Positions 9,001 to 32,061 of a stretch of DNA of 64,000 nt are shown here, in pieces. The notes below the pieces were generated by a model, which saw only the letters and a list, made by a program, of their open reading frames with translations, ran no database searches and was not told the origin of the DNA. The stretch is taken from positions 21,273,501-21,337,500 of the forward strand of contig NC_091966.1 of assembly GCF_036711975.1 (NCBI RefSeq), written 5' to 3'. Within the stretch, counting starts at the first letter, position 1, and each line of letters begins with the position of its first letter. Origin of the DNA: Onthophagus taurus. Taxonomy: Eukaryota > Arthropoda > Insecta > Coleoptera > Scarabaeidae. Position numbers and translations under genes: made by a program.

Positions 9001-12000
9001 TTCAGGCGCCAAATGACATCTTGGAGCATGTTGGAGATAAAAAACCAAATGCCCCCAGAACGGGATATTATGACGTTATACGCCGTTTTGAGCCATGTTT
9101 GAACTTTCTATCACTTTTGGTTCCGATAATTCTGTTGACCATATTTGTGATATTCAGGCGCCAAATGACATCTTGGAGCATGTTGGAGATAAAAAACAAA
9201 ATGTGCCCAAAACGTGATATTATGACGTTATACGCCGTTCTGAGCCATGTTTGAACTTTCTATCACTTTCGGTTCCGATAATTCTGTTGACCATATTTGT
9301 GATATTCAGGCGCCAAATGACATCTTGGAGCATGTTGGAGATAAAAAACCAAATGCCCCCAAAACGGGATATTATTACGTTATACGCCGTTTTGAGCCAT
9401 GTTTGAACTTTCTATCACTTTTGGTTCCGGTAATTCTGTTGACCATATTTGTGATATTCATGCGCCAAATGACATCTTGGAGCATGTTTTAGATAAAAAA
9501 CAAAATGTGCCCAAAACGTGATATTATGACGTTATACGCCGTTTTGAGCCATGTTTGAACGTTCTATAACTTTTGGTTCCGGTAATTCTGTTGACCATAT
9601 TTGTGATATTCAGGCGTCAAATGACATCTTGGAGCATGTTGGAGATAAAAAACAAAATGTGCCCAAAACGTGATATTATGACGTTATACGCCGTTCTGAG
9701 CCATGTTTGAACTTTCTATCACTTTCGGTTCCGATAATTCTGTTGACCATATATGTGATATTCAGGCGCCAAATGACATCTGGGAGCATGTTGGGGATAA
9801 AAAACAAAATGTGCCCAAAACGTGATATTATGACGTTATACGCCGTTTTGAGCCATGTTTGAGCTTTCTATCACTTTTGGTTCCGGTAATTCTGTTGACC
9901 ATATATGTGATATTCAGGCGCCAAATGACATCTTGGAGCATGTTGGAGATAAAAAACCAAATGCCCCCAAAACGGGATATTATGACGTTATACGCCGTTT
10001 TGAGCCATGTTTGAACTTTCTATAACTTTTGGTTCCGGTAATTCTGTTGACCATATTTGTGATATACATTCGTCAAATGACATCTTGGAGCATGTTGGAG
10101 ATAAAAAACAAAATGTGCCCAAAACGTGATATTATGACGTTATACGCCGTGTTGAGCCATGTTTGAACGTTCTATCACTTTTGGTTCCGGTAATTCTGTT
10201 GACCATATTTGTGATATTCAGGCGCCAAATGACATCTTGGAGCATGTTGGAGATAAAAAACCAAATGCCCCCAAAACGGGATATTATGACGTTATACGCC
10301 GTTTTGAGCCATGTTTGAACTTTCTATCACTTTTGGTTCCGGTAATTCTGTTGACCATATTTGTGATATTCAGGCGTCAAATGACATCTTGGAGCATGTT
10401 GGAGATAAAAAACAAAATGTGCCCAAAACGTGATATTATGACGTTATACGCCGTTCTGAGCCATGTTTGAACTTTCTATCACTTTCGGTTCCGATAATTC
10501 TGTTGACCATATTTGTGATATTCAGGGGCCAAATGACATCTTGGAGCATGTTGGAGATAAAAAACCAAATGCCCCCAGAACGGGATATTATGACGTTATA
10601 CGCCGTTTTGAGCCATGTTTGAACTTTCTATCACTTTTGGTTCCGATAATTCTGTTGACCATATTTGTGATATTCAGGCGCCAAATGACATCTTGGAGCA
10701 TGTTGGAGATAAAAAACAAAATGTGCCCAAAACGTGATATTATGACGTTATACGCCGTTCTGAGCCATGTTTGAACTTTCTATCACTTTCGGTTCCGATA
10801 ATTCTGTTGACCATATTTGTGATATTCAGGCGCCAAATGACATCTTGGAGCATGTTGGAGATAAAAAACCAAATGCCCCCAGAACGGGATATTATGACGT
10901 TATACGCCGTTTTGAGCCATGTTTGAACTTTCTATCACTTTTGGTTCCGATAATTCTGTTGACCATATTTGTGATATTCAGGCGCCAAATGACATCTTGG
11001 AGCATGTTGGAGATAAAAAACAAAATGTGCCCAAAACGTGATATTATGACGTTATACGCCGTTCTGAGCCATGTTTGAACTTTCTATCACTTTCGGTTCC
11101 GATAATTCTGTTGACCATATTTGTGATATTCAGGCGCCAAATGACATCTTGGAGCATGTTGGAGATAAAAAACCAAATGCCCCCAAAACGGGATATTATT
11201 ACGTTATACGCCGTTTTGAGCCATGTTTGAACTTTCTATCACTTTTGGTTCCGGTAATTCTGTTGACCATATTTGTGATATTCATGCGCCAAATGACATC
11301 TTGGAGCATGTTTTAGATAAAAAACAAAATGTGCCCAAAACGTGATATTATGACGTTATACGCCGTTTTGAGCCATGTTTGAGCTTTCTATCACTTTTGG
11401 TTCCGGTAATTCTGTTGACCATATATGTGATATTCAGGCGCCAAATAACATCTTGGAGCATGTTGGAGATAAAAAACAAAATGTGCCCAAAACGTGATAT
11501 TATGACGTTATACGCCGTTTTGAGCCATGTTTGAACTTTCTATCACTTTTGGTTCCGATAATTCTGCTGACCATATTTGTGATATTCAGGCGTCAAATGA
11601 CATCTTTGAGCATGTTTTAGATAAAAAACAAAATGTACCCAAAACGTGATATTATGACGTTATACGCCGTTTTGAGCCATGTTTGAGCTTTCTATCACTT
11701 TCGGTTCCGATAATTCTGTTGACCATATTTGTGATATTCAGGCGTCAAATGACATCTTTGAGCATGTTTTAGATAAAAAACAAAATGTGCCCAAAACGTG
11801 ATATTATGACGTTATACGCCGTTTTGAGCCATGTTTGAGCTTTCTATCACTTTTGGTTCCGGTAATTCTGTTGACCATATATGTGATATTCAGGCGCCAA
11901 ATGACATCTTGGAGCATGTTGGAGATAAAAATCCAAATGCCCCCAAAACGGGATATTATGACGTTATACGCCGTTTTGAGCCATGTTTGAACTTTCTATA

Positions 12001-15000
12001 ACTTTTGGTTCCGGTAATTCTGTTGACCATATTTGTGATATTCATTCGTCAAATGACATCTTGGAGCATGTTGGAGATAAAAAACAAAATGTGCCCAAAA
12101 CGTGATATTATGACGTAATACGCCGTTTTGAGCCATGTTTGAACGTTCTATCACTTTTGGTTCCGGTAATTCTGTTGACCATATTTGTGATATTCAGGCG
12201 CCAAATGACATCTTGGAGCATGTTGGAGATAAAAAACAAAATGTGCCCAAAACGTGATATTATGACGTTATACGCCGTTCTGAGCCATGTTTGAACTTTC
12301 TATCACTTTCGGTTCCGATAATTCTGTTGACCATATTTGTGATATTCAGGGGCCAAATGACATCTTGGAGCATGTTGGAGATAAAAAACCAAATGCCCCC
12401 AAAACGGGATATTATGACGTTATACGCCGTTTTGAGCCATGTTTGAACTTTCTATCACTTTTGGTTCCGATAATTCTGTTGACCATATTTGTGATATTCA
12501 GGCGCCAAATGACATCTTGGAGCATGTTGGAGATAAAAAACAAAATGTGCCCAAAACGCGATATTATGACGTTATACGCCGTTCTGAGCCATGTTTGAGC
12601 TTTCTATCACTTTTGGTTCCGGTAATTCTGTTGACCATATATGTGATATTCAGGCGCCAAATAACATCTTGGAGCATGTTGGAGATAAAAAACCAAATGC
12701 CCCCAAAACGTGATATTATGACGTTATACGCCGTTTTGAGCCATGTTTGAACTTTCTATCACTTTTGGTTCCGATAATTCTGCTGACCATATTTGTGATA
12801 TTCAGGCGTCAAATGACATCTTTGAGCATGTTTTAGATAAAAAACAAAATGTGCCCAAAACGTGATATTATGACGTTATACGCCGTTTTGAGCCATGTTT
12901 GAGCTTTCTATCACTTTCGGTTCCGATAATTCTGTTGACCATATTTGTGATATTCAGGCGTCAAATGACATCTTTGAGCATGTTTTAGATAAAAAACAAA
13001 ATGTGCCCAAAACGTGATATTATGACGTTATACGCCGTTTTGAGCCATGTTTGAGCTTTCTATCACTTTCGGTTCCGATAATTCTGTTGACCATATTTGT
13101 GATATTCAGGCGTCAAATGACATCTTTGAGCATGTTTTAGATAAAAAACAAAATGTGCCCAAAACGTGATATTATGACGTTATACGCCGTTTTGAGCCAT
13201 GTTTGAGCTTTCTATCACTTTTGGTTCCGGTAATTCTGTTGACCATATATGTGATATTCAGGCGGCAAATGACATCTTGGAGCATGTTGGAGATAAAAAA
13301 CCAAATGCCCCCAAAACGGGATATTATGACGTTATACGCCGTTTTGAGCCATGTTTGAACTTTCTATAACTTTTGGTTCCGGTAATTCTGTTGACCATAT
13401 TTGTGATATTCATTCGTCAAATGACATCTTGGAGCATGTTGGAGATAAAAAACAAAATGTGCCCAAAACGTGATATTATGACGTAATACGCCGTTTTGAG
13501 CCATGTTTGAACGTTCTATCACTTTTGGTTCCGGTAATTCTGTTGACCATATTTGTGATATTCAGGCGCCAAATGACATCTTGGAGCATGTTGGAGATAA
13601 AAAACAAAATGTGCCCAAAACGTGATATTATGACGTTATACGCCGTTCTGAGCCATGTTTGAACTTTCTATCACTTTCGGTTCCGATAATTCTGTTGACC
13701 ATATTTGTGATATTCAGGGGCCAAATGACATCTTGGAGCATGTTGGAGATAAAAAACCAAATGCCCCCAAAACGGGATATTATGACGTTATACGCCGTTT
13801 TGAGCCATGTTTGAACTTTCTATCACTTTTGGTTCCGATAATTCTGTTGACCATATTTGTGATATTCAGGCGCCAAATGACATCTTGGAGCATGTTGGAG
13901 ATAAAAAACAAAATGTGCCCAAAACGTGATATTATGACGTTATACGCCGTTCTGAGCCATGTTTGAGCTTTCTATCACTTTTGGTTCCGGTAATTCTGTT
14001 GACCATATATGTGATATTCAGGCGCCAAATAACATCTTGGAGCATGCTGGAGATAAAAAACAAAATGTGCCCAAAACGTGATATTGTGACGTTATACGCC
14101 GTTTTGAGCCATGTTTGAACTTTCTATCACTTTTGGTTCCGGTAATTCTGTTGACCATATATGTGATATTCAGGCGCCAAATAACATCTTGGAGCATGTT
14201 GGAGATAAAAAACAAAATGTGCCCAAAACGTGATATTATGACGTTATACGCCGTTCTGAGCCATGTTTGAACGTTCTATCACTTTTGGTTCCGGTAACTC
14301 TGTTGACCATATTTGTGATATTCAGGCGCCAAATGACATCTTGGAGCATGTTGGAGATAAAAAACAAAATGTGCCCAAAACGTGATATTATGACGTTATA
14401 CGCCGTTTTGAGCCATGTTTGAACGTTCTATCACTTTTGGTTCCGATAATTCTGTTGACCATATTTGTGATATTCAGGCGCCAAATGACATCTTGGAGCA
14501 TGTTGGAGATAAAAAACAAAATGTGCCCAAAACGTGATATTATGACGTTATACGCCGTTCTGAGCCATGTTTGAACTTTCTATCACTTTCGGTTCCGATA
14601 ATTCTGTTGACCATATTTGTGATATTCAGGGGCCAAATGACATCTTGGAGCATGTTGGAGATAAAAAACCAAATGCCCCCAAAACGGGATATTATGACGT
14701 TATACGCCGTTTTGAGCCATGTTTGAACTTTCTATCACTTTTGGTTCCGATAATTCTGCTGACCATATTTGTGATATTCAGGCGTCAAATGACATCTTTG
14801 AGCATGTTTTAGATAAAAAACAAAATGTGCCCAAAACGTGATATTATGACGTTATACGCCGTTTTGAGCCATGTTTGAGCTTTCTATCACTTTTGGTTCC
14901 GGTAATTCTGTTGACCATATATGTGATATTCAGGCGCCAAATGACATCTTGGAGCATGTTGGAGATAAAAAACCAAATGCCCCCAAAACGGGATATTATG

Positions 15001-16505
15001 ACGTTATACGCCGTTTTGAGCCATGTTTGAACTTTCTATAACTTTTGGTTCCGGTAATTCTGTTGACCATATTTGTGATATTCATTCGTCAAATGACATC
15101 TTGGAGCATGTTGGAGATAAAAAACAAAATGTGCCCAAAACGTGATATTATGACGTAATACGCCGTTTTGAGCCATGTTTGAACGTTCTATCACTTTTGG
15201 TTCCGGTAATTCTGTTGACCATATTTGTGATATTCAGGCGCCAAATGACATCTTGGAGCATGTTGGAGATAAAAAACAAAATGTGCCCAAAACGTGATAT
15301 TATGACGTTATACGCCGTTCTGAGCCATGTTTGAACTTTCTATCACTTTCGGTTCCGATAATTCTGTTGACCATATTTGTGATATTCAGGGGCCAAATGA
15401 CATCTTGGAGCATGTTGGAGATAAAAAACCAAATGCCCCCAAAACGGGATATTATGACGTTATACGCCGTTTTGAGCCATGTTTGAACTTTCTATCACTT
15501 TTGGTTCCGATAATTCTGTTGACCATATTTGTGATATTCAGGCGCCAAATGACATCTTGGAGCATGTTGGAGATAAAAAACAAAATGTGCCCAAAACGTG
15601 ATATTATGACGTTATACGCCGTTCTGAGCCATGTTTGAGCTTTCTATCACTTTTGGTTCCGGTAATTCTGTTGACCATATATGTGATATTCAGGCGCCAA
15701 ATAACATCTTGGAGCATGTTGGAGATAAAAAACAAAATGTGCCCAAAACGTGATATTGTGACGTTATACGCCGTTTTGAGCCATGTTTGAACTTTCTATC
15801 ACTTTTGGTTCCGGTAATTCTGTTGACCATATATGTGATATTCAGGCGCCAAATGACATCTTGGAGCATGTTGGAGATAAAAAACAAAATGTGCCCAAAA
15901 CGTGATATTATGACGTTATACGCCGTTTTGAGCCATGTTTGAACTTTCTATAACTTTCGGTTCCGGTAATTCTGTTGACCATATTTGTGATATTCATTCG
16001 TCAAATGACATCTTGGAGCATGTTGGAGATAAAAAACAAAATGTGCCCAAAACGTGATATTATGACGTTATACGCCGTTTTGAGCCATGTTTGAACTTTC
16101 TATCACTTTTGGTTCCGATAATTCTGCTGACCATATTTGTGATATTCATGCGCCAAATGACATCTTGGAGCATGTTGGAGATAAAAAACAAAATATGCCC
16201 AAAACGTGATATTATGACGTAATACGCCGTTTTGAGCCATGTTTGAACGTTCTATCACTTTTGGTTCCGGTAATTCTCTTGACCATATTTGTGATATTCA
16301 GGCGCCAAATGACATCTTGGAGCATGTTGGAGATAAAAAACAAAATGTGCCCAAAACGTGATATTATGACGTTATACGCCGTTCTGAGCCATGTTTGAAC
16401 TTTCTATCACTTTCGGTTCCGATAATTCTGTTGACCATATTTGTGATATTCAGACGCCAAATGACATCTTGGAGCATGTTGGAGATAAAAAACCAAATGC
16501 CCCCA
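1..16505. repeat. 152-bp satellite array, left flank (about 108 monomers)
   Basis: Head-to-tail copies of a 152-bp monomer; the landmark GAGCCATGTTTGA recurs every 152 bp. Monomers fall into variants: one with ACAAAATGTGCCCAAAACG, one with ACCAAATGCCCCC followed by GACGGG or AACGGG, and one with AGCATGTTTTAGAT. Variants are arranged in dimers and longer higher-order blocks, for example 760 bp (5599 vs 6359), 1,824 bp (8639 vs 10463), 1,368 bp (12287 vs 13655) and 1,672 bp (13655 vs 15327). Open frames of up to 103 codons span two monomers, but they are translations of the repeat in rotating frames and not genes. The array runs up to and includes the CCCCCA target duplication. Confidence 0.98.
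16500..16505. repeat. Target-site duplication of outer Polinton, left copy (CCCCCA)
   Basis: CCCCCA lies inside the satellite variant AAATGCCCCCAAAACGGG. The same six bases follow the right end of the element at 51824-51829, where the satellite resumes in register. Six-base duplications are typical of Polinton integration. Confidence 0.9.
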
Positions 16506-16518
16506 AGTAGTAGATAAA

Positions 16519-16635
16519 AGCCGATTCTAGAACCTCCTCTCAGAACCTCAGGTCAAGGTCAAGGCCAAGGTCACGTTGAGTGACCATGACCTTGACCTTG
16601 CCCTGAGGTTCTGGGAGGAGGTTCCATAATCGGCT
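16519..16635. other. Terminal long imperfect palindrome (hairpin-capable), left end of outer element
   Basis: AGCCGATTCTAGAACCTCCT near the tip is complementary to AGGAGGTTCCATAATCGGCT at 16616-16635, and the bases between also pair (CTCAGGTCAAGGTCAAGG against CCTTGACCTTGCCCTGAG). This gives a stem of over 50 bp with a short loop around GTTGAG. The mirror copy is 51697-51813. Such a structure may mark the terminal-protein-primed replication origin; that role is inferred. Confidence 0.7.
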
Positions 16636-16850
16636 ATTGCAAAGGGGGTCGTTGACCAGTAACCTTGACCTAAACAATGACCTTTACTTTGAGCTCACCT
16701 CAGGTCAAGATCACGTTTAGTGACCATGACCTTGATCAGTAACCTTGACCTGAACAATGACCTTTACTTTGATCTCAACGGAGACCTTGAAGTCAACCTT
16801 AATTGTGACCATTACATTGACCGTGTACGTGACCTGAAATGAAGGTTACA
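16547..16850. promoter_or_regulatory. Cluster of nuclear-receptor-like half-sites (AGGTCA / TGACCT)
   Basis: About a dozen exact AGGTCA or TGACCT hexamers plus near variants (TGACCA, AAGTCA) occur in roughly 300 bp. Many are in the extended form TCAAGGTCA or its complement TGACCTTGA, which matches the monomeric site known for FTZ-F1/ERR-class receptors. Both TIRs and an internal partial copy (17799-17931) retain them. Binding by a host receptor is inferred. Confidence 0.55.
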
Positions 16851-16892
16851 CGACGTGAGGCCATTGAAAACCCCACTTCGGAGGAGGTATGC

Positions 16893-16900
16893 TTTAAATA
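16893..16900 (+). promoter_or_regulatory. TATA-like box in left TIR (TTTAAATA)
   Basis: TTTAAATA lies 109 bp upstream of the ATG at 17009. The right TIR carries the same box in mirror position (51433-51440), about 50 bp upstream of the zinc-finger/PolB start, so one promoter design serves both ends. Confidence 0.5.
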
Positions 16901-17008
16901 GCAGATAGAAAATCGTGTTCAACAGTATTGAAGTAAGAGTGTTGTGAACATAAAGAAATTGAGGAACTTGTAACTCCTATTTTAAGCAGTTTACTTCGCT
17001 TAAATATA

Positions 17009-19330: not shown

Positions 19331-20233
19331 ATGCATCGATCAAGCAAATGGCCTGGTCGAGGTATTGTGAATACATTAATCAATAAGCTTCCGATAGAAC
19401 TACATTTGCCAGGTTATAATTATTGCGGTCCGGGAACCAAATTGGTAAAGAGATTAGTTCGTGGAGATCAGGGAGTGAATAAATTAGACGACGCCTGTAA
19501 AACGCATGATATTGCCTACGCAGCGACATCGAATTTAGCTGAGCGACACATAGCCGATAAAGAGTTGTATAAGACAGCGAAAGAGCGGTTGAGAAGTAAA
19601 GACGCAAGCTTAGGAGAGCGACTATCGTCGGCGTTAGTGTCAACGATAATGAAAGGAAAAACAATAATGGGTATGGGAATGCAAATTCGTGCCCTAAGAC
19701 GTAGAGGGACAACTCGTCAGAAGTTGAAACGTGGCGGTAAGTTGTCGTTTACGCAGGCAATGAACTTAGTGCGGCGAGCGATTGCACAGACCAACAGTAC
19801 GAATACAAAGGGAGATGTACAAGTGGGTTACAATCTGTTGAAACCTTATCAAGGTAGAATACTTAAACCGCGCGGAAAAATAATCAAGATTCCCAAGACG
19901 GGAGGTTTTTTACCCTTAATACTTGCAGCTTTGGGTGCTCTCGGTTCTTTAGGCGGAGGTGCAGCAGCTATTGCAAAAACCGTAAACGAAGCAAAAATAG
20001 CAAGGGAGCAGTTACAAGAAGCCGAACGTCACAATCGGGCTATGGAACCAAAAGCGATCGGCAGCGGTTTGTATATAAAACCATATAAGCATGGTTGCGG
20101 ACTAGTCATGAAAACGGTATCACGAAAATCAAAGCCACTAAAACGCACCAAGAGGGCGAACAAAATTGGTACAGGAATGTTTATTAATCCATATAAAAAG
20201 GGTTGTGGTTATAAAACTGTAGCAAAAAACTAA
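19331..20233 (+). CDS. PLA2/pX-like virion protein (300 aa); 0-frame partner of the protease
   Basis: Residues 28-63 match a parvovirus-type phospholipase A2 signature: YCGPGT (calcium-loop type) at 31-36, then DDACKTHDIAY with the catalytic-type His-Asp pair at 59-60. The middle part is very basic. Residues 193-216 are a Gly/Ala/Leu hydrophobic segment starting GGFLPLILAALGAL, which resembles the C-terminal part of adenovirus core protein pX. The tail has two GxGxxIxPYKxGCG repeats (about 244-257 and 280-293). Likely a minor virion protein for membrane breach or DNA condensation (inference). The gene ends in A AAA AAC TAA, a -1 frameshift signal leading into the protease frame. Conserved KRGG (133-136) and KTGG (189-192) could be maturation sites. 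Confidence 0.8.
   Translation: MHRSSKWPGRGIVNTLINKLPIELHLPGYNYCGPGTKLVKRLVRGDQGVNKLDDACKTHDIAYAATSNLAERHIADKELYKTAKERLRSKDASLGERLSSALVSTIMKGKTIMGMGMQIRALRRRGTTRQKLKRGGKLSFTQAMNLVRRAIAQTNSTNTKGDVQVGYNLLKPYQGRILKPRGKIIKIPKTGGFLPLILAALGALGSLGGGAAAIAKTVNEAKIAREQLQEAERHNRAMEPKAIGSGLYIKPYKHGCGLVMKTVSRKSKPLKRTKRANKIGTGMFINPYKKGCGYKTVAKN
20224..20230 (+). promoter_or_regulatory. Putative -1 ribosomal frameshift heptamer A AAA AAC (outer)
   Basis: In the frame of the upstream gene the codons read GCA AAA AAC TAA, so the heptamer A AAA AAC is in the X XXY YYZ register directly before the stop. The -1 frame continues into the protease frame, which has no ATG until after conserved protease sequence. The same arrangement exists at 35231-35237. 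Confidence 0.72.
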
Positions 20234-20426
20234 TAAAAATACCCCAACATTCTTTAACGGATGTAGAGTTAAGGCGATATGCACGAGCGCTTGATCTGTT
20301 AAACTTTCGTGGGGTGTACATGAGAAACAATTTACCGAAGAAAATCCGAAAACGAGAGAGTGGGATAATAAATCTTGATAATCGTACGGGTCCCGGTACT
20401 CACTGGACAGCTTACAACAAGGATGG

Positions 20427-20811
20427 AACGAATGCATTACAAATTTATTGTAATTTGAGCTCCGGATCGTATACGAATGGACAACCCATGCACGTGTTGT
20501 ATCATTTCTTCCCGAACGTACCGGCTGGTTTTAAAATAATAGAAGCTCCGCAACAACCGATTTACTTACCTGTTACAACGAACGTGATTAGTACATTAAT
20601 AGTACGCATACTTGATCAGGACGGTCAGTTGGTAAACTTCAGAGACGAAGAAGTGACCGTGAGAGTGCACTTGAAATCGGTGTGAGTAGTAGGGTATTTA
20701 ATATGGGTATAGTGTACGACGTTCGAAGAAAAGCACAGGAAAGTCTGGGTGATAGAGTAATGTATAAAACGGTACGAAAGGATGTAAAACCTAACAGTAA
20801 GCGAAAATCAA
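20427..20811 (+). repeat. 385-bp duplicate of 38925-39309 inserted in the protease gene
   Basis: Identical to 38925-39309 with one mismatch noticed (AGTCTGGG vs AATCTGGG, near 20740) and no indel across 385 bp. It carries the C-terminal part of the minor capsid protein and the start of the small basic protein; both are non-functional here. Without the inner element the two copies were about 1.1 kb apart, in the same orientation. Confidence 0.92.
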
Positions 20812-20995: not shown

Positions 20996-21001
20996 GTGTA
21001 A
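20996..21001. repeat. Target-site duplication of inner Polinton, left copy (GTGTAA)
   Basis: GTGTAA is repeated at 38414-38419 directly after the right end of the inner element. Its TAA is the protease stop codon, so the insertion fell between protease and penton genes without cutting either. Confidence 0.93.
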
Positions 21002-21605
21002 AGTAGTATAGATTCGCCGATTCAAGAACCTCCTCCTCGAACCTGCGTTCTAGGAGGAGATTCTTGAATCGGCAAATTTTTTGGGGGTCAGAGGAGGTTC
21101 GATGAGGAGAGGAGGTTCTTGAATCGGCGATTCTTTTGAGGGTCGGAGGAGATTCGATGAAGAGAGGAGGAGGTCAATTAACTTGAGAAGGTCATGTTAT
21201 TTTGACGAAATTATTAAAAATTTATCTTTATTAAAAATGTATCTTTATTTAGGTTATGTTATTAAAAATTTATCTTTATATGTAACCTGTTTACCTAGAT
21301 GAAAACAATTACTATGTTTATCCTTCGACGCTTCTCAATGAACTGGTAATGTTTTCGATATATCTCTTAACTTATTGTACACAAAGGTATACGGTTTTGG
21401 GACATGTAGGTATACAAATAAGTGAGTCATCATCTACCTGCGGGATATTTTTTAAAATTTATTGTGTAAAGGTATACGGAGCTTTAAAATATGCGAGGAG
21501 GTTCTTGAATCGGCAAATTTTTTGGGGGGATACGTTCGAGGAGGAGGTCAATTAACTTAATACTAGTAAGTGAGTCATGATCTACCTGCGAGATATTTTT
21601 TTAAT
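21002..21605 (+). repeat. Inner Polinton left TIR
   Basis: Inverted copy of 37835-38413, with small indels (this side has an extra stretch near 21145-21165). It contains several copies of the core GCCGATTCAAGAACCTCCTC or its complement, and AT-rich direct repeats (AAAAATTTATCTTTAT). The match fades after GATATTTTTTTAATTT. Confidence 0.85.
21016..21073. other. Terminal hairpin-capable palindrome, inner left end
   Basis: GCCGATTCAAGAACCTCCTC at 21016 pairs with GAGGAGATTCTTGAATCGGC ending at 21073, leaving a short loop. Mirror copy at 38342-38399. Same core motif as the outer element's termini. Confidence 0.7.
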
Positions 21606-21779
21606 TTATTATGCAGAGGTATACGGAGTTATAAATATACATGTATACAAACGCACTCGATGCATCCTCCTCCTCCCCAATAAGTTTCAGGAGCGGTGAG
21701 GGTTTATAAACGCCTGCGAAATGTGGTATTGACGTAGTTCTTTCATAACAAGTAGAAGTGTACAACATTAAATTGTAAA
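21606..21779 (+). promoter_or_regulatory. Promoter region of inner PolB
   Basis: Contains TTTATAAA at 21703-21710, 70 bp upstream of the zinc-finger/PolB start codon at 21780, preceded by a C/T-rich patch (CCTCCTCCTCCCC). No ORF. Confidence 0.5.
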
Positions 21780-24700
21780 ATGGTCGTGTGTGAGGATTGT
21801 GGAAAAAGTTTTACTCGAGTTGACAATTTAAAAAGACATCAACGATTATCTTGTATTGGCAAGAGAATCAAGCTTGACGCACCGCAAATTCCAAAAGCAG
21901 TAAAATGTGAGGCTTGCGATGATTATGTAAATAGACAATGTTACTCTGCACATTTACGAAGCAACGCACACAAGCGTAACGCTTTTGTTATAATCGATGA
22001 CGGAGTGGAGAGAATAGCTGGAGCATTCGGTGACAAAATTGTCAGTTATCGAATAAGTGAAGAAGGTTTTTTTGTAGATTTGGATGAATTTTCTCATAGA
22101 ATTCGAGAAAAAATACTAAATCTAATACAAAGCGCAATCGATATTCACCGAAATGTAAAATTAAATATGGAATGTTTTGGTTTGTATTTTTTACAATCAA
22201 AGGAAGACTGTGAAATAAAATCATTCAATACGAAAAATAAGGTAGTATCATTAGCGTCGGATCTGTATAAAATATATAAGGAATTTATTGATGAAATTTC
22301 ATCAAAAATGTCAGAATTCCAGGAACGAGATTCAGGTAAGCGTAATGTGACATAATATACCTATATATTAAAAAATAAATGTTTCAATATTTTATTTAGG
22401 ATGGACTTTAATGCAAATTCTCTATATGGAGTTAAATTTAAACAAATATAATCCTATCAGAGCATCTAATTACATCGATCTACCATCGCAAATAAAAGCA
22501 AAGCGTGCTGTGATAAATATACAAAACGCGGATGATGCATGTTTTGCATGGGCTGTAACATCCGCACTACATGAACCGAACGGTTTACCACAGAGGACAT
22601 CTTCGTATCCGAATTACCTAGACTGCGGCTTAGACTATTCAAATATTGTTTTTCCAGTTAAATTACGAGATATACCTGTATTTGAAAAGCAGAACAAACT
22701 ATCTATTAATGTATATGGAATAAATGAGTATTTTAAAGACGGTGTTATGAATTATGACATAATTACAATGTATATATGTCGACAAAAAGAAGAAAGACAT
22801 ATAAATTTATTATTGGTTACAAATGATTCCGGGAATAGTCACTATTGTTGGATAAAAAATCTGTCTCGATTACTATCATCGCAAGCATCGCAGAATGGTC
22901 ATGAAAAGTATATTTGCGACGGATGCTTGGTATTCTTTACGTCAGAAAATAAACTTATCCGTCATCAAAGTGACGATTGCAGCAAGGTAAGGGCAATTTT
23001 ACCAACAACAAATTTGAAAATAAATAAATATGGAAATGAAGAAAAGGAAAATATACTACAGTTCGAAAATTTTGAACGACAATTAAAAATACCGTTCGTG
23101 GTGTATGCAGATTTTGAAGCATTACAGAAACCGATCGCCGATGCGGAAGCAACAGAACTTAACGATGATAATTCATACTCCGTCAAATGTTTCAAACACG
23201 AACCTTATGCATTTGCATATTATATAAAATGTTCATATGACGAATCATTGTCGAAGTTTGAAATATATCGCGGATGTAATGCTGCTCAAATTTTCATGAG
23301 CAAGTTGGAACATGACGTTCTGAATATATACAAAAATTATTTAAGCCAACCAAAAGAAATGCTCCCATTACCACCTATTGATAGATTAATACATGAGATG
23401 CAGGATATCTGTCACATTTGTTCGCACAAAATAAAAGAAGGTAATAAAGTGTGCGATCATGATCACCTAACTGGGTTGTATAGAGGACCCGCACATGCTG
23501 TATGTAACATCAATTATCAATTACCAAAGTTCATACCGATATTCTTTCACAATCTTTCGAACTACGATTGTCATATGTTTGTGAAAGATATGGCATTAAA
23601 AGAAGAAGACGTGGACGTTATAGCACAGAATAAAGAAAAGTATATATCATTTTCGAAAAAAATTATCGTAGGAGAAAACATTGACAGCAAGGGAAAGCTA
23701 AGGCGGGTTCATATGAAATGGAGATTTGTGGATTCATTTAGGTTTATGGCTTTATCGCTAGAGAAGTTGGGTTCATTTTTGGAAGACAACCAATGCGTTC
23801 AAATCAGAAAATATTTTAGGAACGAAGAACAGTTTCGACTTATACGTCAGAAAGGAGTTTTTCCGTATTCCTTTGTGGATTCATTCGAAAAGCTGAATCT
23901 TACCGCTCTGCCAGATCGAAGTAGTTTTTACAATACTTTATGCGACGATAGTATAACCGAAGAAAATTATTGTCGTGCACAAACGGTGTGGAACTTATTT
24001 AACTGTCGCACTTTAGGCGAATATAGCGACATTTATTTAACGTCTGACGTTTTACTTTTGGCGGACGTATTTGAGAATTTCCGAACCATCTCGATGAAGT
24101 ATTACTCTTTAGATCCATGTCATTACTTCATAGCGCCGGGCTTCGGTTGGGATGCATTATTACGAATGACAGGGGTAAAATTAGAATTATTAACGGACAT
24201 AGACATGTTACACTTCTTTAAAAATGGTATTCGCGGTGGATTAAGTATGTGCACTAAACGCAGTGCGAAGGCTAACAATAAATTAATGATGGAATTTGAT
24301 GAAACCAAAGACCCATCTTATATTTTGTATCTCGACGCTACGAATTTGTATGGACACGCAATGAGACGAAAATTACCGACGGGTGGATTTCGATGGCTAT
24401 CAGATGAAGAGATTCAAAAGTTAGATATTTACAATACGGAAGACGATTCCGAAAAGGGTTACGTGTTCGAGGTAGATTTAGAGTATCCGGAAGCAATACA
24501 TGATGAACACAACGATTTGCCATTTTGTCCAGAACGGATTGTACCCCCAGGTTCAAAAAATGCAAAGTTAATAGCAAATTTGGAAAATAAAACAAAATAC
24601 ATCATTCATTACGTGAATCTAAAGCAGTGTATCAAGTTCGGATTGAAACTAACGAAGATTTACAGAGTATTAGAATTTAAACAATCCAACTGGATGCGGA

Positions 24701-25564
24701 GCTACATCGATTTCAATTCCGATAAACGTGCGAAAGCTAAGAATGAATTTGAAAAAAATCATTACAAAGCAATGAATAACATCGTATACGGTAAGACAAT
24801 GGAAAATGTGGAAAAGCGAGTGGATATAAGACTAGTTACCCACTAGGAATGTCGTCATAAGAAACCGGGCGTGGAAGCCCTAATAGCTAAACCAAATTTT
24901 AAATCTTCGAAAATATTTTGCGATAATTTGATAGCCGTTCAATTGAACGTCGCGGAATTGCAAACCGCTGTATGTGGGTTTCAGTATATTAGAGCTTTCG
25001 AAAACCGTAATGTACAGCTTCTTCTATGATTACTTAAAAGTTAAATATGGAAATAACATAACACTTTTATACACCGATACTGATTCCCTAATCCTAGAAA
25101 TTACTACTCCCAATGTATATGAGGATATAAAAGAAAATATTGAATTTTTTGACACGTCCAATTATCCGTTAGAGAATATACACAATATACCTCGCGGTCG
25201 ATCTGTGTTGGGAAGAATGAAAGATGAATATCCAAACAGGTGCATAACGTCATTTGTTGGAACAGGAGCTAAGGCGTACTGCATCACCTTGTTGAATGAT
25301 AATGTAAAGAAGGCTAAAGGAGTAAAGAAATATGTTATAGATAAACATTTAAGCGTGACCGATTATAAACGTGTGGTTGAATGTGGCGGATCGGTTCATA
25401 AAAAAATGTACATTTTTAAGTCAGAATTTCATACTATGTATACCGAATTAAAGAATAAAATTGCTCTTTCATCGTGCGATGATAAACGATACATATTACC
25501 GAACGGATGTAATACTTTGGCGTGGGGTCATTGGTTGATAAAAAGATTGAATGCGAATAAATGA
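21780..25564 (+). pseudogene. polB: Zinc-finger + protein-primed DNA polymerase B, two exons, disrupted (inner)
   Basis: Exon 1 (21780-22335) encodes a C2H2 finger (C-x2-C...H-x4-C type) and a second Cys/His finger. A 64-nt phase-1 intron (22336-22399) joins it to the polymerase ORF. The polymerase part has another finger (YICDGCLVFF), exonuclease motif YADFEA, an endonuclease-VII-like CDHDHLTGLYRG site, polymerase motif A (LDATNLYG), the YGKTMEN motif and catalytic YTDTDS (about 25069-25086). Replicates the linear genome by protein priming in this family. Two lesions: a TAG at 24844-24846 where the outer copy has Trp, and a frameshift close to 24960-24973, both before the catalytic DTDS. Without readthrough the product lacks the active site. 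Runs convergently towards the integrase, with AATAAA at 25632-25637. Confidence 0.92.
22336..22399 (+). other. Phase-1 intron joining zinc-finger exon to PolB (inner)
   Basis: Donor TTCAG|GTAAGC, acceptor TTATTTAG|GATGG, 64 nt. Exon 1 would otherwise end a few codons later (GKRNVT stop). The outer element has an intron at the identical codon (Gly, phase 1), 50766-50824. Confidence 0.85.
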
Positions 25565-25671
25565 ATTTAATTTAAAAAAAAAATTGTAAAGAATAATAAT
25601 AATAATAATGTATTTGTAATGTTCGATTGTTAATAAAGTCTTGTAAACTTTTAAATAGGTCTTTATACGTT

Positions 25672-26607
25672 TTAAAGAACGTTAGTTTTTGAGATCCAAG
25701 AATTATGAGACGGACCTAATCCTAACCATTTCACAAACACTTGATTTCCTTTTCGCCGTAGCACTTTTTCCACCAAGTAGACGTCAGGATATTTAACTTT
25801 TTGTAATTCCTCTCGATAAGAACCACCCATAATTTTTTCATTGGATGCATCTTTGAGCAGATATGTTGTTGGGAAAGTATTACGAACAGAATGTATTGTA
25901 AACACTTCGTTAGACCAATTGGGAGTATAGTTCTTGGTGAAGGCGTGTCGATGCTTGCTCACTCTAACGTGATCACCGACATTAAATTTTTTGGTGTAAG
26001 GATCGACAATTTTTATGTAATTATATACAGTTTTTAACAGTGTCGATGCGTTTCTGTTATTTACCTCGCTAGGTTTCATTCCTATCGTCCTGTGAACTTG
26101 GTTGTTATAATCCAGAATTAATTTGGGAAGCAATTCCAACCAACGATAGTTACCTTGCATACTAAATTCTTTCCACATTTTTTCTTTTATTGTTCTATTA
26201 AACCGTTCAACAATAGAACTTTTTAAATTGGAAAATGAACTGTAGTGATTGATGTGATATCGTGACATGAGCTTTTTAAAATCCTCATTGTAAAATTCTT
26301 TTCCGTTATCCGTTTGCAGATTCTTCGGTATGTTTTTCCGCTTTTCCGATAGAATTGTTTCCATAGCTCGCGTAACTTCTTTGCCAGTTTTGTTTTTTAG
26401 TGGTACAGCCCATCCATACTTTGAGAAAGCATTAATAACTGTTAGAATATATTTAAAATTACCATTTGCTTTTGAATAAGGTATCATCTCCACTAAATCA
26501 GCTTGAAATAAGTCCGTTAAACCTTTTATAATAACACGTCTGCGTTTATACTTTTTCCTCGCGGACGCGTGCAACTCGTTTACGACGGACCTTTTAATAT
26601 CGCTCAT
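25672..26607 (-). CDS. int: Retroviral-type DDE integrase with C-terminal chromodomain (inner)
   Basis: Intact, 311 residues. The RVE core shows D (FQADLVEMI), D (LQTDNGKEF) and E (SSIVERFNRT), the D,D-35-E triad. The C-terminus (VEKVLRRKG...VKWLG...NSWI) is a chromodomain, which may steer insertion to particular chromatin. Catalyses strand transfer and the 6-bp target duplication. The start ATG overlaps the stop of the preceding minus-strand gene by 4 bp (ATGA), so the two are translationally coupled or read from one message. Roughly 70 percent identical by eye to the outer integrase, with no disabling change. Confidence 0.95.
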   Translation of the reverse strand: MSDIKRSVVNELHASARKKYKRRRVIIKGLTDLFQADLVEMIPYSKANGNFKYILTVINAFSKYGWAVPLKNKTGKEVTRAMETILSEKRKNIPKNLQTDNGKEFYNEDFKKLMSRYHINHYSSFSNLKSSIVERFNRTIKEKMWKEFSMQGNYRWLELLPKLILDYNNQVHRTIGMKPSEVNNRNASTLLKTVYNYIKIVDPYTKKFNVGDHVRVSKHRHAFTKNYTPNWSNEVFTIHSVRNTFPTTYLLKDASNEKIMGGSYREELQKVKYPDVYLVEKVLRRKGNQVFVKWLGLGPSHNSWISKTNVL

Positions 26608-27029
26608 TTTCTGGATATTTCAATGAGCAGTTCTACCATAAATGGTTTCTTGAGTAAAGTGGTCTTCGTTGTGGGTTTGCAAACTATTTTATCTCCAAAG
26701 AAGAGAACATTTAACTTTTTATTTGGATCGAAGATACTCCCGTTAATAATCATTTCAACGTCTCCTTCAAATCGGTATTTCACTATTTCACCAATATATA
26801 AAAAGTTTATATATTTACTTACGTAACCTAAATTTTGAATAATGTAATAATTATCCGTTGTATCCGTAGTTCCATCTCCGCTAAACGTAAGTATTGTTGG
26901 TTGTTTGAAATATCGTTGTAAGTTTTCACGTTTATTAAAATGAGCAGCAATGTTGTGTCCGTGTACGTGTTTACCAAACTTATCGATCGTCATACTAGAC
27001 GAATGTTTTCCGAACTTGCTTAAACTCAT
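26604..27029 (-). CDS. Small conserved Polinton protein with FGKH motifs, 141 aa
   Basis: The N-terminus has repeated FGKH (MSLSKFGKH, then IDKFGKHVH), followed by a beta-rich body ending FMVELLIE. The outer homologue (46056-46463) keeps FGKHVHxH, GDG, YINxxYxG, and the PFxVELLIE end. It lies directly upstream of the integrase in both elements, with 4-bp overlap here. Function unknown; a virion surface role is conceivable but unsupported. Confidence 0.8.
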   Translation of the reverse strand: MSLSKFGKHSSSMTIDKFGKHVHGHNIAAHFNKRENLQRYFKQPTILTFSGDGTTDTTDNYYIIQNLGYVSKYINFLYIGEIVKYRFEGDVEMIINGSIFDPNKKLNVLFFGDKIVCKPTTKTTLLKKPFMVELLIEISRK

Positions 27030-27098
27030 CTGCTCTAGTTCACAAACGTCGGTGTTTTAAAACAAAAAATGTGAGAGTCGTATATTTATGATAATATT

Positions 27099-28262
27099 TT
27101 AACGTATAATCTCGGCCTCTGTTAGCTCCGATATTATTGATGATATTTCATTGACATGTGCAGAATGACCTGCAGTTTGCGAGGCCATCAACAAACGCAG
27201 TCTGTCGACAAGTTCGTTGGGATCGTCCCAATACTCGTATTCGATAAGAGCCCCAGGAACGACTTGTTTTTGTAATGCACCACCGACTTTTTTCTTCGGA
27301 TTCGGCCAGTATTTAGCCCAATGCACCTTGGGTTTGTTACCTTCAACGATAGGCTTGATAATATTCTGAAATTTCCCACTGTCGTCCTCAGTAGTCATAC
27401 CTGCCTCTGGAATGTAATTAATGTACGGAGCATTTGAACGTAGTAAGATATCTTTGTAGTTGCGCATGTCCTGAATTGTAAATTTGCCCGGTTCGTTTTT
27501 AAATAGTAAATCATATAAACCAACGGTTCCCGTATATTTGAAGTTTCCAACGTGAATATCCTGATCCTCAAAGTGAACAGGACTGACTCCAATGTAGAAA
27601 CCTTCGGGAGTTTCGCGAACACCGTATAAACGATCATAATCATCTTTTAAATCAGTTGTTAAACCAACAATATACGTTCTGGGCAAAGGATGAAACTGAC
27701 TCAAAGCGGCTTGTACCTCTGGAGACTCCAATCTTTCTTCTATTTCATCTTTAAGTCGTTCTATTCGATTATGTGCGTCCGAAATAAGAGCTCCGGTATC
27801 CTCGCTAGAATCGAGGAGTTCTTCTTCTTCGCCCGGCGGAACTTCATATACTTCTTCTTCTGCATGAGCTAATGGACCAAGAGGAGAAGACGTGGGAGAA
27901 GATACCAACCTTTTTTCAGGAGTCGATGTAGCAAATTTTCGTCGTTGTTCTTTTAATGGAACTTTCGGTTTTCGAATAAAATATTCGGTCTCGGTTTTAG
28001 CTGGTACGTCAGAAATATCCGGCGAGTAGCGTTGTATCTTAGATATCAATTTTTCTTCTTTTGGAGATAAACTTCGTTTTGGAATGGATAGTAAAGGCGC
28101 AGTGTCAAGTTTTGCGACAATATCCTGTAAGGGCCTTGCGATGGGTGCATATGCGGTTTCCGACCGAATCCTTGACTCCTCTAAGTCTTCTTTTAAAGAA
28201 CGAATTTTGTCTCTCACGACTTCTCGTGCCGCGATAAGTTCTGCAGCTATCGTCTTGTTCAT
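27099..28262 (-). CDS. Conserved Polinton protein, 387 aa, coiled-coil N-terminus and DUF8207-like C-terminus
   Basis: Residues 1-60 are a charged amphipathic helix (MNKTIAAELIAAREVV...). The middle is acidic, Ser/Pro-rich and probably disordered. The conserved C-terminal half includes PLPRTYIVGLT, YTGTVGLYDLLF, NYKDIL, KPxVHWAKYWP and a C-terminal HNEISSIISEL helix. The GLYDLLF...NYKDIL pattern recalls the DUF8207 domain of arthropod hypothetical proteins (from memory, not searched). Homologue at 44849-46009. Encoded between ATPase and integrase in both elements. Role unknown. Confidence 0.82.
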   Translation of the reverse strand: MNKTIAAELIAAREVVRDKIRSLKEDLEESRIRSETAYAPIARPLQDIVAKLDTAPLLSIPKRSLSPKEEKLISKIQRYSPDISDVPAKTETEYFIRKPKVPLKEQRRKFATSTPEKRLVSSPTSSPLGPLAHAEEEVYEVPPGEEEELLDSSEDTGALISDAHNRIERLKDEIEERLESPEVQAALSQFHPLPRTYIVGLTTDLKDDYDRLYGVRETPEGFYIGVSPVHFEDQDIHVGNFKYTGTVGLYDLLFKNEPGKFTIQDMRNYKDILLRSNAPYINYIPEAGMTTEDDSGKFQNIIKPIVEGNKPKVHWAKYWPNPKKKVGGALQKQVVPGALIEYEYWDDPNELVDRLRLLMASQTAGHSAHVNEISSIISELTEAEIIR

Positions 28263-28313
28263 TGTATGATGTATGTGAAGTTACTACGAACTGTACAGCT
28301 GAAGTCGTTAGTT

Positions 28314-29018
28314 TTAAACTTCAATGAATTTATCAAAACCCTTACGGTAACGTCCCTTAGATACACTACAATCTAAATCAATAACTAGGATGCCGTGTCT
28401 ATTCTCCCAACAAGCATCGCTAATTTCCTTTAGCCGATGAAACTCCATATCGCTCATTATGTGATCTTCAAATACGTGTTTTAAATTTGTTAAGTCTTGT
28501 TTAAATAACACCAAAAAGTTACAATTATCGCGAACTAATTGTTTTGGAATTGCACTATAACTTTGACAAATTAGAAAACAATCAATGTTTTTATGTCGAC
28601 CATACGAAAAAAATTCCTTAATGACATTTTGACCTGTACAGGAAACATCGTCAAATACGACTACCGAATATTCTTTCGCATCTTCCGGTCGAATGAACTC
28701 GTCTATATTAGAAAATTCATAGTAACCGCAATCTTTTATAGGTTCAATTAAACGTCTTAAAAAATCGTACTTATTTTGGTATAACGAATTAGAGCATAAG
28801 TACAAGTTTAGGAAGCGCAACCCATTACGTGCAACTAAAAGCGATAACATAGCATTTGTTTTTCCGACACCTGAGGGTCCTACAATTAAACCTCGCTTAC
28901 ATTTTCCACCAAATAAATTGCTGTGTCTTGTAAAGTGTTCTTCGACCGAACCATTACTAAAATTTACTATAGGCAGTGTTAGAAGTTGCGGTAAACATTT
29001 TAATTTCTCGTCGATCAT
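28314..29018 (-). CDS. Genome-packaging ATPase (A32/FtsK-HerA type), inner, intact
   Basis: 234 residues from ATG at 29018 (the frame is open further upstream but without ATG). Walker A is GPSGVGKTNAM, Walker B is SVVVFDDV, followed by a FSYGRHKN segment and a QSY sensor-like motif. In adintoviruses and related viruses this ATPase pumps DNA into preformed capsids. A TATATATAG at about 29073-29081 (minus strand) lies about 55 bp upstream. The outer homologue is interrupted by a stop codon. Confidence 0.93.
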   Translation of the reverse strand: MIDEKLKCLPQLLTLPIVNFSNGSVEEHFTRHSNLFGGKCKRGLIVGPSGVGKTNAMLSLLVARNGLRFLNLYLCSNSLYQNKYDFLRRLIEPIKDCGYYEFSNIDEFIRPEDAKEYSVVVFDDVSCTGQNVIKEFFSYGRHKNIDCFLICQSYSAIPKQLVRDNCNFLVLFKQDLTNLKHVFEDHIMSDMEFHRLKEISDACWENRHGILVIDLDCSVSKGRYRKGFDKFIEV

Positions 29019-29187
29019 GATTCTCGTACTAAATGAATTGGATAAGACTGAATGAAAATATAGCAAAAGAAACTATATATACATATATTTAAGAAGAATA
29101 ATAATAATAATAATAAGTATAATACCTTAACCATTTAACCTAACATAACCTAACCTAACCTAACCTAAGGAAGAGGAGGAAAAATGG
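29019..29187. other. Intergenic stretch with simple repeats
   Basis: AT-rich promoter of the ATPase gene, an AATAATAATAAT run, then the CCTAA tract and a GAGGAGGAAAAA patch that forms a short palindrome with CCTCCTCCTC downstream. No gene seen. Confidence 0.5.
29138..29168. repeat. Short CCTAA (TTAGG-type) telomere-like tract
   Basis: AACCTAACATAACCTAACC and onward, about five CCTAA units with one variant. TTAGG is the common insect telomere repeat; such AACCT runs also occur as plain microsatellites. Confidence 0.8.
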
Positions 29188-29499
29188 TTACCACTCCTCC
29201 TCCTCTTCCTGCTCATCCCGCACTTCATACGGGGGCGGAGGCGCTGCAGGTGTCGGTGTCGGAGGTTCTATCCCAGTCGAACAATGGTGTATGTGCATGT
29301 TTTGAACATGCACCTGCCCTCTCACCACTGCCGACTCTGAGACAATACTGTTTACCTAAGAAGATTATGAAATTAAAAACGTGCAAAAAAGATTATAGAT
29401 ATAGCCTACCAGCTGAAACAGGGTATCTACTTTGACCTCCAATGACGCAACTCTTCGCTCCAACGTGAGCACCCTCCCGAAGTTGTTGCTACCGGACAT
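29188..29499 (-). CDS. Two-exon leucine-zipper protein with Pro-rich and acidic tail, 85 aa
   Basis: Not visible as one ORF. Exon 1 (29499-29410) starts ATG 8 nt after the stop of the 325-aa ORF. Donor CAGCTG|GTAGGC, acceptor TTCTTAG|GTAAAC; intron 29356-29409 is 54 nt, phase 0. Exon 2 (29355-29188) runs to TAA. The product has four heptads from residue 10, with Val at every a position and Leu/Leu/Leu/Ile at d. The last a/d pair lies across the splice junction, which supports the intron. A Pro-rich segment (PPTPTPAAPPPP) and a C-terminal run of Glu follow. It resembles a small dimerising regulator, function unknown. Part of the inner accessory locus; no homologue in the outer element. Confidence 0.6.
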
Positions 29500-29507
29500 C
29501 TTTTTAG

Positions 29508-30485
29508 CTAGGAAGGGAAGTTATTAGTATGTAAAGAAGACAAAATGAATTCTGCTTTTTTCATTTCAACGGTTAATGTTGCAACGGTGATGTCGAGTGA
29601 CGTTGTTAAAGAGTGGTTAGAACTCGACGCCAGCCCTTCCCTAAACTGTGCAAGTTCTCTCAAAGAGGTCTGCAATTGAAGTACCTTTGCATGAAGGTCT
29701 TTATAAAAATTTTGATACAAAATATTAATTTCGGTCAAAATCTCCTCTTTGGTTGTTTCTACTGCTGCACACATTGCATTTGAAAAAAGGCTGGCAGGTA
29801 CATCGGAAATGACTGAAGTAGCGGGAATTGTGTCCACCCTTAAGATTTGTACTTTCGGGCTTAATGAGGGAACTTCTATGGTAGGAATGTTTATGTTAGT
29901 AGGGGGAGTGGGAATCGACGAAGCTTTAGAAGAAGAAGCCTTAGAAACAAAAGCTGCATTAATAGCTTTAAGGTATGTCCGGTTTTCGGTGCAGTGTTGG
30001 GATACCGCCATTAAAGAAAGAGAGTCGTTGGACTCATCGCCGCTAGCCACTTCCGAGTGTGTCACTTCAACCTTTGACAGAGTCGCAGGTTCAACTGACA
30101 CACGCTTGTGTTTGGTACTTCGCGAACGAGCACGGGTCTCCCGTCGAAGCTCTCTATACTTATCTGGCGGTAACCACACACCTGCACCCTTCTTCCGGTG
30201 TTCACGGTTCCCCGACTTTCGACGAAGTGAAAGTGAAAGGTGTTTCACATTCTTATCGTCGACTTTCGAGGAACCTGCGATGTTTGGAAGCGCCGTAGCT
30301 TGCTGCACATTAGATTCAACGTTTGGATCCATCGGCTGCTCATTAGGCTGCACGTTTGGATCCAGAGCCTTCTCAACAGTCGACATGTTCAACAGGTTTA
30401 TGTCAAAACTGTTTAACAGAAAGGATTCCTGGCTGGCGAAACCCGGAGCAGTTAAATCAATTTGACTAAAACCGTCTTGAGACAT
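29508..30485 (-). CDS. Accessory protein, 325 aa, disordered with basic patch and C-terminal coiled coil
   Basis: Starts ATG at 30485, immediately after a splice acceptor (TCAAG|ATG). Contents: a low-complexity N-terminus with repeated DPNVxPNxQP-type phrases, a basic segment (REHRKKG, then RRETRARSRSTKHKR, residues about 95-130) that could bind nucleic acid or act as a nuclear localisation signal, Ser/Thr/Pro-rich middle, and a helical C-terminus (KEEILTEINILYQNFYKDLH) likely forming a coiled coil. No known domain recognised. It occupies the same position as the unrelated 385-aa protein in the outer element. Expressed from a multi-intron leader. Confidence 0.65.
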   Translation of the reverse strand: MSQDGFSQIDLTAPGFASQESFLLNSFDINLLNMSTVEKALDPNVQPNEQPMDPNVESNVQQATALPNIAGSSKVDDKNVKHLSLSLRRKSGNREHRKKGAGVWLPPDKYRELRRETRARSRSTKHKRVSVEPATLSKVEVTHSEVASGDESNDSLSLMAVSQHCTENRTYLKAINAAFVSKASSSKASSIPTPPTNINIPTIEVPSLSPKVQILRVDTIPATSVISDVPASLFSNAMCAAVETTKEEILTEINILYQNFYKDLHAKVLQLQTSLRELAQFREGLASSSNHSLTTSLDITVATLTVEMKKAEFILSSLHTNNFPS

Positions 30486-31205
30486 CTTGATAAGAAAAGA
30501 AAATTAATTAATTTTATTTTAATAAAAAAAACATGTATACTTACATCGCTTGATGAAAAATACAGTTGCACGTTAAAATCTAACTGCAGAGGGTGCTTGT
30601 CAACAAAGTGCTGAATGATAGGATATGAATGATAAAACGTTCGAAAAAATAAAGTTATGCTTACCAATAAAAGTTAACTTGAAAAAATAGAAGGAGCTAT
30701 AGGAATGAAAAACACAAGATTAAAAACAATATATGTCAAGAAAGGAGACTATACTTACCAGAAAAAAGTTGCTGAAATTACGATGTTAAAAACTGATCGG
30801 TCTAATCGAACTGATCAGCAGTAAGCTCCTGTAGGAATTGGGAAAAAATATCAATTTAACATAACAAACAAATAAACAAGTTGTACTCACAAAAACAAAG
30901 TAGAACGAGCTGTCATGATGAAATAAAGCAAGAATATATTATATAAACATGGAAGTAGAAAAGGTTACTTACCAAATAAAACACAGCAAAAAAAGAGAAA
31001 GCTGAATGAGCAAGGATGTCTAGGAGTGGAAAAAACAATTTTAAATATTATATAAACATGCAAAACAAATATAGTTTTACTCACCAAAAAAGAGAAAGTT
31101 GTAGAAAGAGCTGTAGTGATGGAGAGAAAATGAACGTTATATAAACATGATAATAAAGAAGGTTGTACTTACCAAAAAACTGAAGAACACAAACACTTAA
31201 GTGAC
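30486..31205 (-). promoter_or_regulatory. Seven-intron, AUG-free 5' leader of the 325-aa gene
   Basis: On the minus strand seven GT-AG introns of 54-65 nt alternate with tiny exons: introns 31172-31111, 31084-31020, 30972-30910, 30890-30829, 30758-30697, 30664-30611 and 30544-30486; exons between them are 26, 47, 19, 70, 32 and 66 nt. Donors are GTAAGT, GTGAGT or GTAAGC. Exons contain no ATG, while most introns do. Introns 1-3 share CATGTTTATATAA, and exons 2, 4 and 6 all begin CTC-TTCTA-like, so the units arose by tandem duplication. Confidence 0.65.
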
Positions 31206-31228
31206 TTTCAAAGGCTGGGAGGTGCCTT

Positions 31229-31330
31229 CTTATACTAGAGTAATGAAGGGGGGCGTGGGGTGGGGCGTGACAAGGGGGAGGAGTGGGGAATGGGCGGAGT
31301 TAGAGTGGGGGTACTTTTTTAGATTTCCCC
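31229..31330 (-). promoter_or_regulatory. GC-box/CACCC-rich TATA promoter of the inner accessory locus
   Basis: Minus strand reads, in order, CCGCCC, a run of CCCCACTCC / CCACCCCACGCCCCCC boxes, then TATAAG (complement of 31229-31234), then the AUG-free first exon ending at the donor 31172. The G-rich plus strand could form a G-quadruplex. It differs sharply in composition from the rest of the element. Confidence 0.55.
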
Positions 31331-32005: not shown

Positions 32006-32061
32006 CTTGAACTGCTCTACCGCTACTACCCGTCTGCCTTTCTCAATTCGTTTACATATAG

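Follow-up and report, generated by a model that had tools for sequence, protein, structure and literature searches.

The stretch of DNA analysed here, called the window below, comprises 64,000 nucleotides of the Onthophagus taurus genome (NC_091966.1, positions 21,273,501 to 21,337,500) and holds two nested Polintons, each with a PLA2/pX gene that runs into a gene for an adenain-like protease. The features are the following.

16509-51823, no strand: outer Polinton, with inverted ends 16509-16951 and 51382-51823, split by the inner Polinton
21002-38413, no strand: inner Polinton, with inverted ends and a 6-bp target duplication, GTGTAA
19325-20233, plus strand: outer PLA2/pX open frame, stop to stop; its inner homologue matches PF08398
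20224-20230, plus strand: slippery heptamer A AAA AAC (X XXY YYZ) of the outer Polinton, in the last two PLA2/pX codons
20231-20233, plus strand: zero-frame stop TAA, directly after the outer heptamer
20215-20426, plus strand: outer adenain-like protease in the -1 frame, N-terminal part only, no ATG before codon 36
20427-20742, plus strand: insert in the outer protease, 316 nt identical to 38925-39240, with similarity to about 20816
35228-36154, minus strand: inner PLA2/pX open frame, stop to stop (PF08398, E 1.2e-12)
35231-35237, minus strand: slippery heptamer A AAA AAC of the inner Polinton
35228-35230, minus strand: zero-frame stop TAG, directly after the inner heptamer
34851-35240, minus strand: inner adenain-like protease in the -1 frame, 129 aa, first Met at residue 34

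Both Polintons have terminal inverted repeats, and target duplication was demonstrated for the inner one, which is flanked by copies of GTGTAA at 20996-21001 and 38414-38419. The inner Polinton also has the capsid, integrase and ATPase that define Polintons and adintoviruses, in the form of a double jelly-roll capsid protein (PF21738, E 1.5e-100), an rve integrase (PF00665, E 4.5e-12) and a packaging ATPase (PF04665, E 1.1e-8). The protein-primed DNA polymerase B was assigned by eye to the long frames 22372-24846 and 47552-50089. The polymerase frames are split in both elements (47552-50820 on the minus strand, 22372-25564 on the plus strand), one break lying near an A run at 50083, and because of this both copies look inactive. 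A satellite array with a 152-bp unit, about 95% alike, lies on either side of the outer Polinton (1-16506 and 51826-63997), and within that element short tandem duplications at 40944-41108, 41297-41578 and 43542-43688, with units of 68, 141 and 72 bp, surround two unidentified frames (41633-42811 and 42829-43440).

The original prediction was that the PLA2/pX gene of both Polintons ends in an in-register A AAA AAC directly before its stop, and that the protease follows in the -1 frame without an ATG for about 30 codons. Both statements are correct, for the heptamers at 20224-20230 and 35231-35237 (minus strand), and the first ATG is codon 36 in the outer and codon 34 in the inner copy. The outer junction reads GCA AAA AAC TAA in the PLA2 register, and its -1 frame opens at 20215, which is 9 nt 5' of the heptamer, and meets its first ATG within the FRGVYM block. 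The inner -1 frame opens at 35240, 3 nt 5' of the heptamer, where a stop closes it upstream, and the stretch over which the two frames are open together is thus just 10 nt long, seven of which are the heptamer itself. Among 28 ORFs scanned in the window, three in-register slippery heptamers are followed by a -1 run of at least 25 codons beyond the zero-frame stop, namely the two PLA2/pX junctions and an A AAA AAA at a DNA polymerase gene that is broken. Of 7,978 codon positions in 26 ORFs, four carry A AAA AAC in register, and two of the four are at the junctions.

The prediction missed that the outer protease is not intact in the window. The segment 38925-39240, which matches the insert, is the 3' end of the penton gene and the start of the next region, and the 156-aa outer frame is a chimera that consists of penton gene end from 20427 onward. 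The outer protease is broken because this copy interrupts it from 20427; sibling copies have an uninterrupted protease frame of 135 aa. Given its full identity the insert is recent, or possibly an assembly artefact. By eye, the TAA of GTGTAA closes the frame that bears the C-terminal motif of the outer protease.

To see how the junction looks elsewhere in the O. taurus genome, 127 places were read, made up of 126 fetched loci (the inner copy included) and the outer copy, with at most 150 candidates scored in each genome search for the protease locus. The -1 frame could be located at 124 of the 127, the exceptions being L014, L058 and L063. The alignment of junctions that had been proposed as a check came out in favour of the prediction in this one genome, with an in-register heptamer at 111 of the 124 located junctions, in several divergent lineages: A AAA AAC at 98 and U UUU UUA at 13. 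By lineage, the in-register counts are as follows.

A AAA AAC: I 31/33, II 26/28, IIIa 1/1, IIIb 19/20, IIIc 6/6, VI 8/10, VII 6/7, IX 1/3
U UUU UUA: IV 10/10, IVb 3/4
Neither heptamer: V (one copy, L021) and VIII (one copy, L045)

After A AAA AAC the zero-frame stop comes at once in 58 copies, one codon on in 34 and five codons on in 6, and after U UUU UUA it comes 13-16 codons on. In each representative copy the -1 frame opens 5' of the zero-frame stop. Loss of the heptamer in close relatives with a functional protease had been named as evidence that would speak against frameshifting; of the 13 junctions without the arrangement, L021 belongs to lineage V and the other 12 are broken or altered at the junction. 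The heptamer letters are kept and the frames or the stop altered in L020, L042, L048, L050 and L068, and the run is changed or gone in L034, L045, L047, L051, L055, L067 and L102. In L048 and L034 PLA2/pX and protease share one open frame, the A run of L034 being longer.

Between the frame opening and the FRG block there is no ATG in 91 of the 92 A AAA AAC loci of lineages I, II, III, VI and IX, L085 being the one locus that has it. The protease frame of L046 (lineage IX, G000:C10:15041742-15043748) is 137 aa long and contains no Met at all, with the GTHW and CGHLC motifs kept. An in-frame ATG 5' of the FRG block is found in all six heptamer copies of VII and in 10 of the 13 U UUU UUA copies, and 15 of these 16 ATGs are at most 11 codons from the FRG block, inside the conserved N-terminal block. 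In the single copy of lineage V an ATG overlaps the TGA stop. Relatives with an ATG-started protease, which the prediction had counted as adverse evidence, thus do exist, at the DNA level in L021 and as several database proteins that begin Met-Lys-Leu-Pro, but since L021 is without the heptamer it solves the same problem by other means and is no refutation.

Among IIIa, IIIb, IIIc and VI, dN in the N-terminal -1-frame region is 0.10-0.21 and dS 0.68-1.03, and two IIIb copies differ there by 4 synonymous and 0 nonsynonymous changes. These rates indicate that, wherever lineages can be compared, purifying selection acts on the -1 reading of the stretch that lacks an ATG. An ungapped comparison of IX with IIIb gave dN 1.18 and a saturated dS between sequences of unequal length, and for these reasons shows no selection for IX. 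In a confident predicted model the region forms a helix (14-23) and a strand (29-34), and the fold matches adenain, with the catalytic His, Asp/Glu, Gln and Cys in place.

Could the protease instead have a start of its own, by reinitiation after the stop or on a separate mRNA, at an internal AUG or a near-cognate codon? Lineage V has such an ATG, and among the 86 listed protease homologues 11 begin Met-Lys-Leu-Pro or Met-Lys-Ile-Pro and 62 have a called start at least 12 residues before FRG, for which callers may accept GTG or TTG; because of these 62, another start is possible in many relatives. A protease begun at the internal AUG, residue 34 of the inner copy, would however lack the conserved helix and most of the strand, a region under purifying selection, and L046 has no Met to start from. 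The sole near-cognate position common to 11 representatives is an Ile/Leu codon that precedes FRG by three codons and lies inside the conserved block, and none common to them lies between the stop and that block. Nor would an own start need the overlap of the -1 and zero frames that each representative has, and we regard it as very improbable. Thirteen of the 86 begin at a Met within the FRG block, as a gene caller would have them begin where an upstream start is absent.

Splicing that removes the stop and shifts the frame, also named beforehand as adverse evidence, proved to be poorly supported. GT and AG dinucleotides are common, and in I, III, VI and IX an AG follows within 6 nt of the first base of the stop, but the distance from that base to the first AG is 34 nt in lineage II, 46-48 nt in IVb/IV and 31 nt in VII, so long that an acceptor in II, IV and VII would cut the conserved N-terminal block. 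As splicing would moreover require no heptamer, we find it hard to believe.

Other species were studied as proteins. The 143 listed PLA2/pX homologues are drawn from the 120 best of 951 and the 120 best of 298 matches, leaving out five fusions and the window's own protein. Lys-Asn followed by 0-2 residues forms the C-terminus of 121 of them (28, 42 and 51 with 0, 1 and 2 residues); shuffled tails give 4.6 on average and 12 at most. The ending would seem to be a footprint of A AAA AAC; it is missing in 22. Hosts with the ending include Popillia, Anoplophora, Aquatica, Photinus, Molorchus and Pyrocoelia, and hosts without it Tribolium, Exocentrus and, in a second entry, Popillia again. In a 155-row tree built without the tails, and with up to five residues allowed after Lys-Asn, the 128 Lys-Asn rows are spread over all main clades (16 label changes versus 25.3 when shuffled), and 12 of the 22 tree rows without Lys-Asn fall in one 14-row clade. 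On the protease side, Lys-Lys-Leu, which is the -1 reading of A AAA AAC, precedes the conserved block in 13 of the 86 listed homologues. Natural in-frame fusions of PLA2/pX and protease also occur: P0207 (Lucilia), P0208 (Temnothorax) and P0209 (Brassicogethes) are annotated as such, in gene models that might contain introns, and P0019, P0210 and P0235 come from contigs.

That the conservation reflects selection, as first proposed, is borne out by the recurrence in divergent lineages, by the low dN and high dS of the -1 N-terminus and by the footprint in the homologues. One could still argue that Lys-Asn is a motif of the protein and that the protease gene has merely decayed at its start, since Polintons often are decayed and the dipeptide itself is conserved. 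Yet the residues upstream in the tail vary while the codons xxA AAA AAC do not, and given Lys-Asn, codon use alone predicts them only 9% of the time; dN is well below dS 5' of the first ATG, and the arrangement is common to nearly all copies of I and II. Chance or a constraint on the protein is in our opinion next to negligible as an explanation.

The nearest rival to frameshifting is transcriptional slippage, in which RNA polymerase adds an A (or U) in the run so that some mRNAs join both frames. The sites are indeed runs of A6-A7 or U7, the product would be identical, and L034 is a natural copy that has a longer A run and both genes in one frame. Polymerase slippage needs neither a fixed register nor a C after the A run, and yet the Lys-Asn end recurs in the homologues and xxA AAA AAC in every intact A-type lineage. 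Runs of 6-7 are also short compared with those known for polymerase slippage, and the explanation is an improbable one.

The RNA downstream of the heptamer was folded and scored in windows of 60 and 90 nt. In lineage VII a long hairpin lies 9 nt after the heptamer (60 nt, z -5.3, 0/61 windows lower; 90 nt, z -3.8, 3/61 lower), and in lineage II a long-range stem lies 8 nt after it, with a signal at 90 nt (z -3.3 in L016, 1/61 lower; z -3.6 in L015) and none at 60 nt. The corresponding features in the window are two.

20239-20317, plus strand: possible stimulatory stem in the outer copy, arms 20239-20246 and 20310-20317, their sequences equal to those of the arms in the lineage II copies
35146-35222, minus strand: weak counterpart in the inner copy, arms 35222-35215 and 35153-35146, 90-nt z -0.6 to -0.7, not significant

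Lineage I has the stem topology of II, by eye with 3 of 8 pairs different (one of them on both sides), and is not significant. Lineage IV reached a modest z of -2.0 to -2.3 (3 and 2 of 61 lower) and IIIa z -2.0 at 90 nt in one of two runs; no structure signal was seen in IIIb, IIIc, VI and IX. A search for simple H-type pseudoknots scored clearly better than shuffles only in VII (0/60), where the plain hairpin already accounts for the score, and the next best was I with 6/60. The original prediction, which saw no clear pseudoknot downstream by eye, missed the hairpin of VII and the stem of II at 8-9 nt. By the simple methods used, a downstream structure does not appear to be general.

The most rational explanation, to which we give a probability of about 85%, is that the PLA2/pX-protease junction is a programmed -1 ribosomal frameshift site that makes a minor fusion product, and the frameshift interpretation of the original prediction is supported. 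The heptamer, its register, the overlap, the missing ATG, the selection in the -1 frame, the recurrence in divergent lineages, the footprint in homologues and the natural fusions are the observations on which this is based. Most ribosomes would terminate 0-5 codons past A AAA AAC and yield PLA2/pX, while a minority would slip back one base on the heptamer and continue through KKL into a PLA2/pX-protease fusion, which would be made at a set ratio. In most lineages no other way to obtain a complete protease is evident, and the protease would presumably be delivered into the particle inside the fusion and later be cleaved from it.

Known frameshift sites offer a parallel. Retroviral gag-pro frameshifting in the -1 direction uses heptamers of the A AAA AAC class, and U UUU UUA is the HIV-type heptamer. 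The Polinton junctions share with gag-pro the two heptamer types, the register, the stop at or near the heptamer and a protease that would be the minor C-terminal extension of a structural protein. They differ in that Polintons are dsDNA elements without homology to that system, in that the Polinton protease is not an aspartic protease behind Gag but an adenain-like cysteine protease behind PLA2/pX (PF08398), and in that a stimulatory structure does not appear to be general. The junction would work like Gag-Pro, yet it is no member of that class.

We hypothesize further, and hold it to be an even bet, that the ancestral way in which arthropod Polintons make the maturation protease is to extend PLA2/pX by frameshifting at a low ratio, and that descendants repeatedly swapped the device, for U UUU UUA, for an in-frame fusion or for an ATG overlapping the stop. 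Tied to PLA2/pX, the protease would enter the particle, and the tether might also act as its cofactor in cis. In adenovirus the cofactor peptide of adenain is cleaved from another protein, whereas the Polinton protease would share one chain with PLA2/pX. The structures 1nln and 1avp in the PDB are entered as the adenovirus protease with its 11-residue peptide cofactor. In the one model made of a natural fusion, P0019, the pX tail (residues 40-54) has pLDDT below 50 and is disordered, which lends the cis-cofactor idea no support.

The original prediction knew of no such description for Polintons. As regards the PLA2/pX junction this stands: literature searches of incomplete coverage found no report of a frameshift there, and the junction is not mentioned in section 16 and further passages of PMC11071296, nor described in passages of PMC8097293, PMC12567637, PMC8310308, PMC4028283, PMC3671162, PMC12721341 and PMC8363768. 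It does not stand for the group as a whole, as a 2024 preprint (PMC11071296, section 16) suggested -1 frameshifts at the 3' end of the adintovirus penton gene and in potential Hexon-Adenain ('Hexain') fusions. Those sites have the virus group and the mechanism in common with ours, and in the Hexain case also a protease downstream, but the upstream genes are penton and hexon, and that section bases them on KnotInFrame with no test of conservation.

According to a passage in PMC8310308, frameshifting is known from relatively few DNA viruses of eukaryotes. If the ancestral scenario above is right, the junction would be a case of frameshifting between a structural protein and a protease that is deeply conserved within a lineage of eukaryotic dsDNA viruses. 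A conserved site would explain why some Polinton proteases are missed or shortened by gene callers, and the natural series of two heptamers, fusion and overlapping ATG would be material for studies on how recoding is gained and lost. Frameshifting also predicts the exact junction peptide, and would give a simple test of whether or not Polinton virions are built under a Gag-Pro-like control of dosage.

Three scans of viral contigs (protease, A1 and A2) and a scan of a phage collection gave no confirmed relative, and a scan of genome contigs gave one locus, L049 (WRFS01000058.1), a broken PLA2 fragment with no readable junction. Because no usable relative came from these scans, the evidence at the DNA level is from one genome and that from other species is in the form of proteins. 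The contig of L049 is filed under an Oscillospiraceae MAG and holds the PLA2-like fragment together with integrase-like frames, all of them Polinton-like and broken, and it is probably mis-binned animal DNA.
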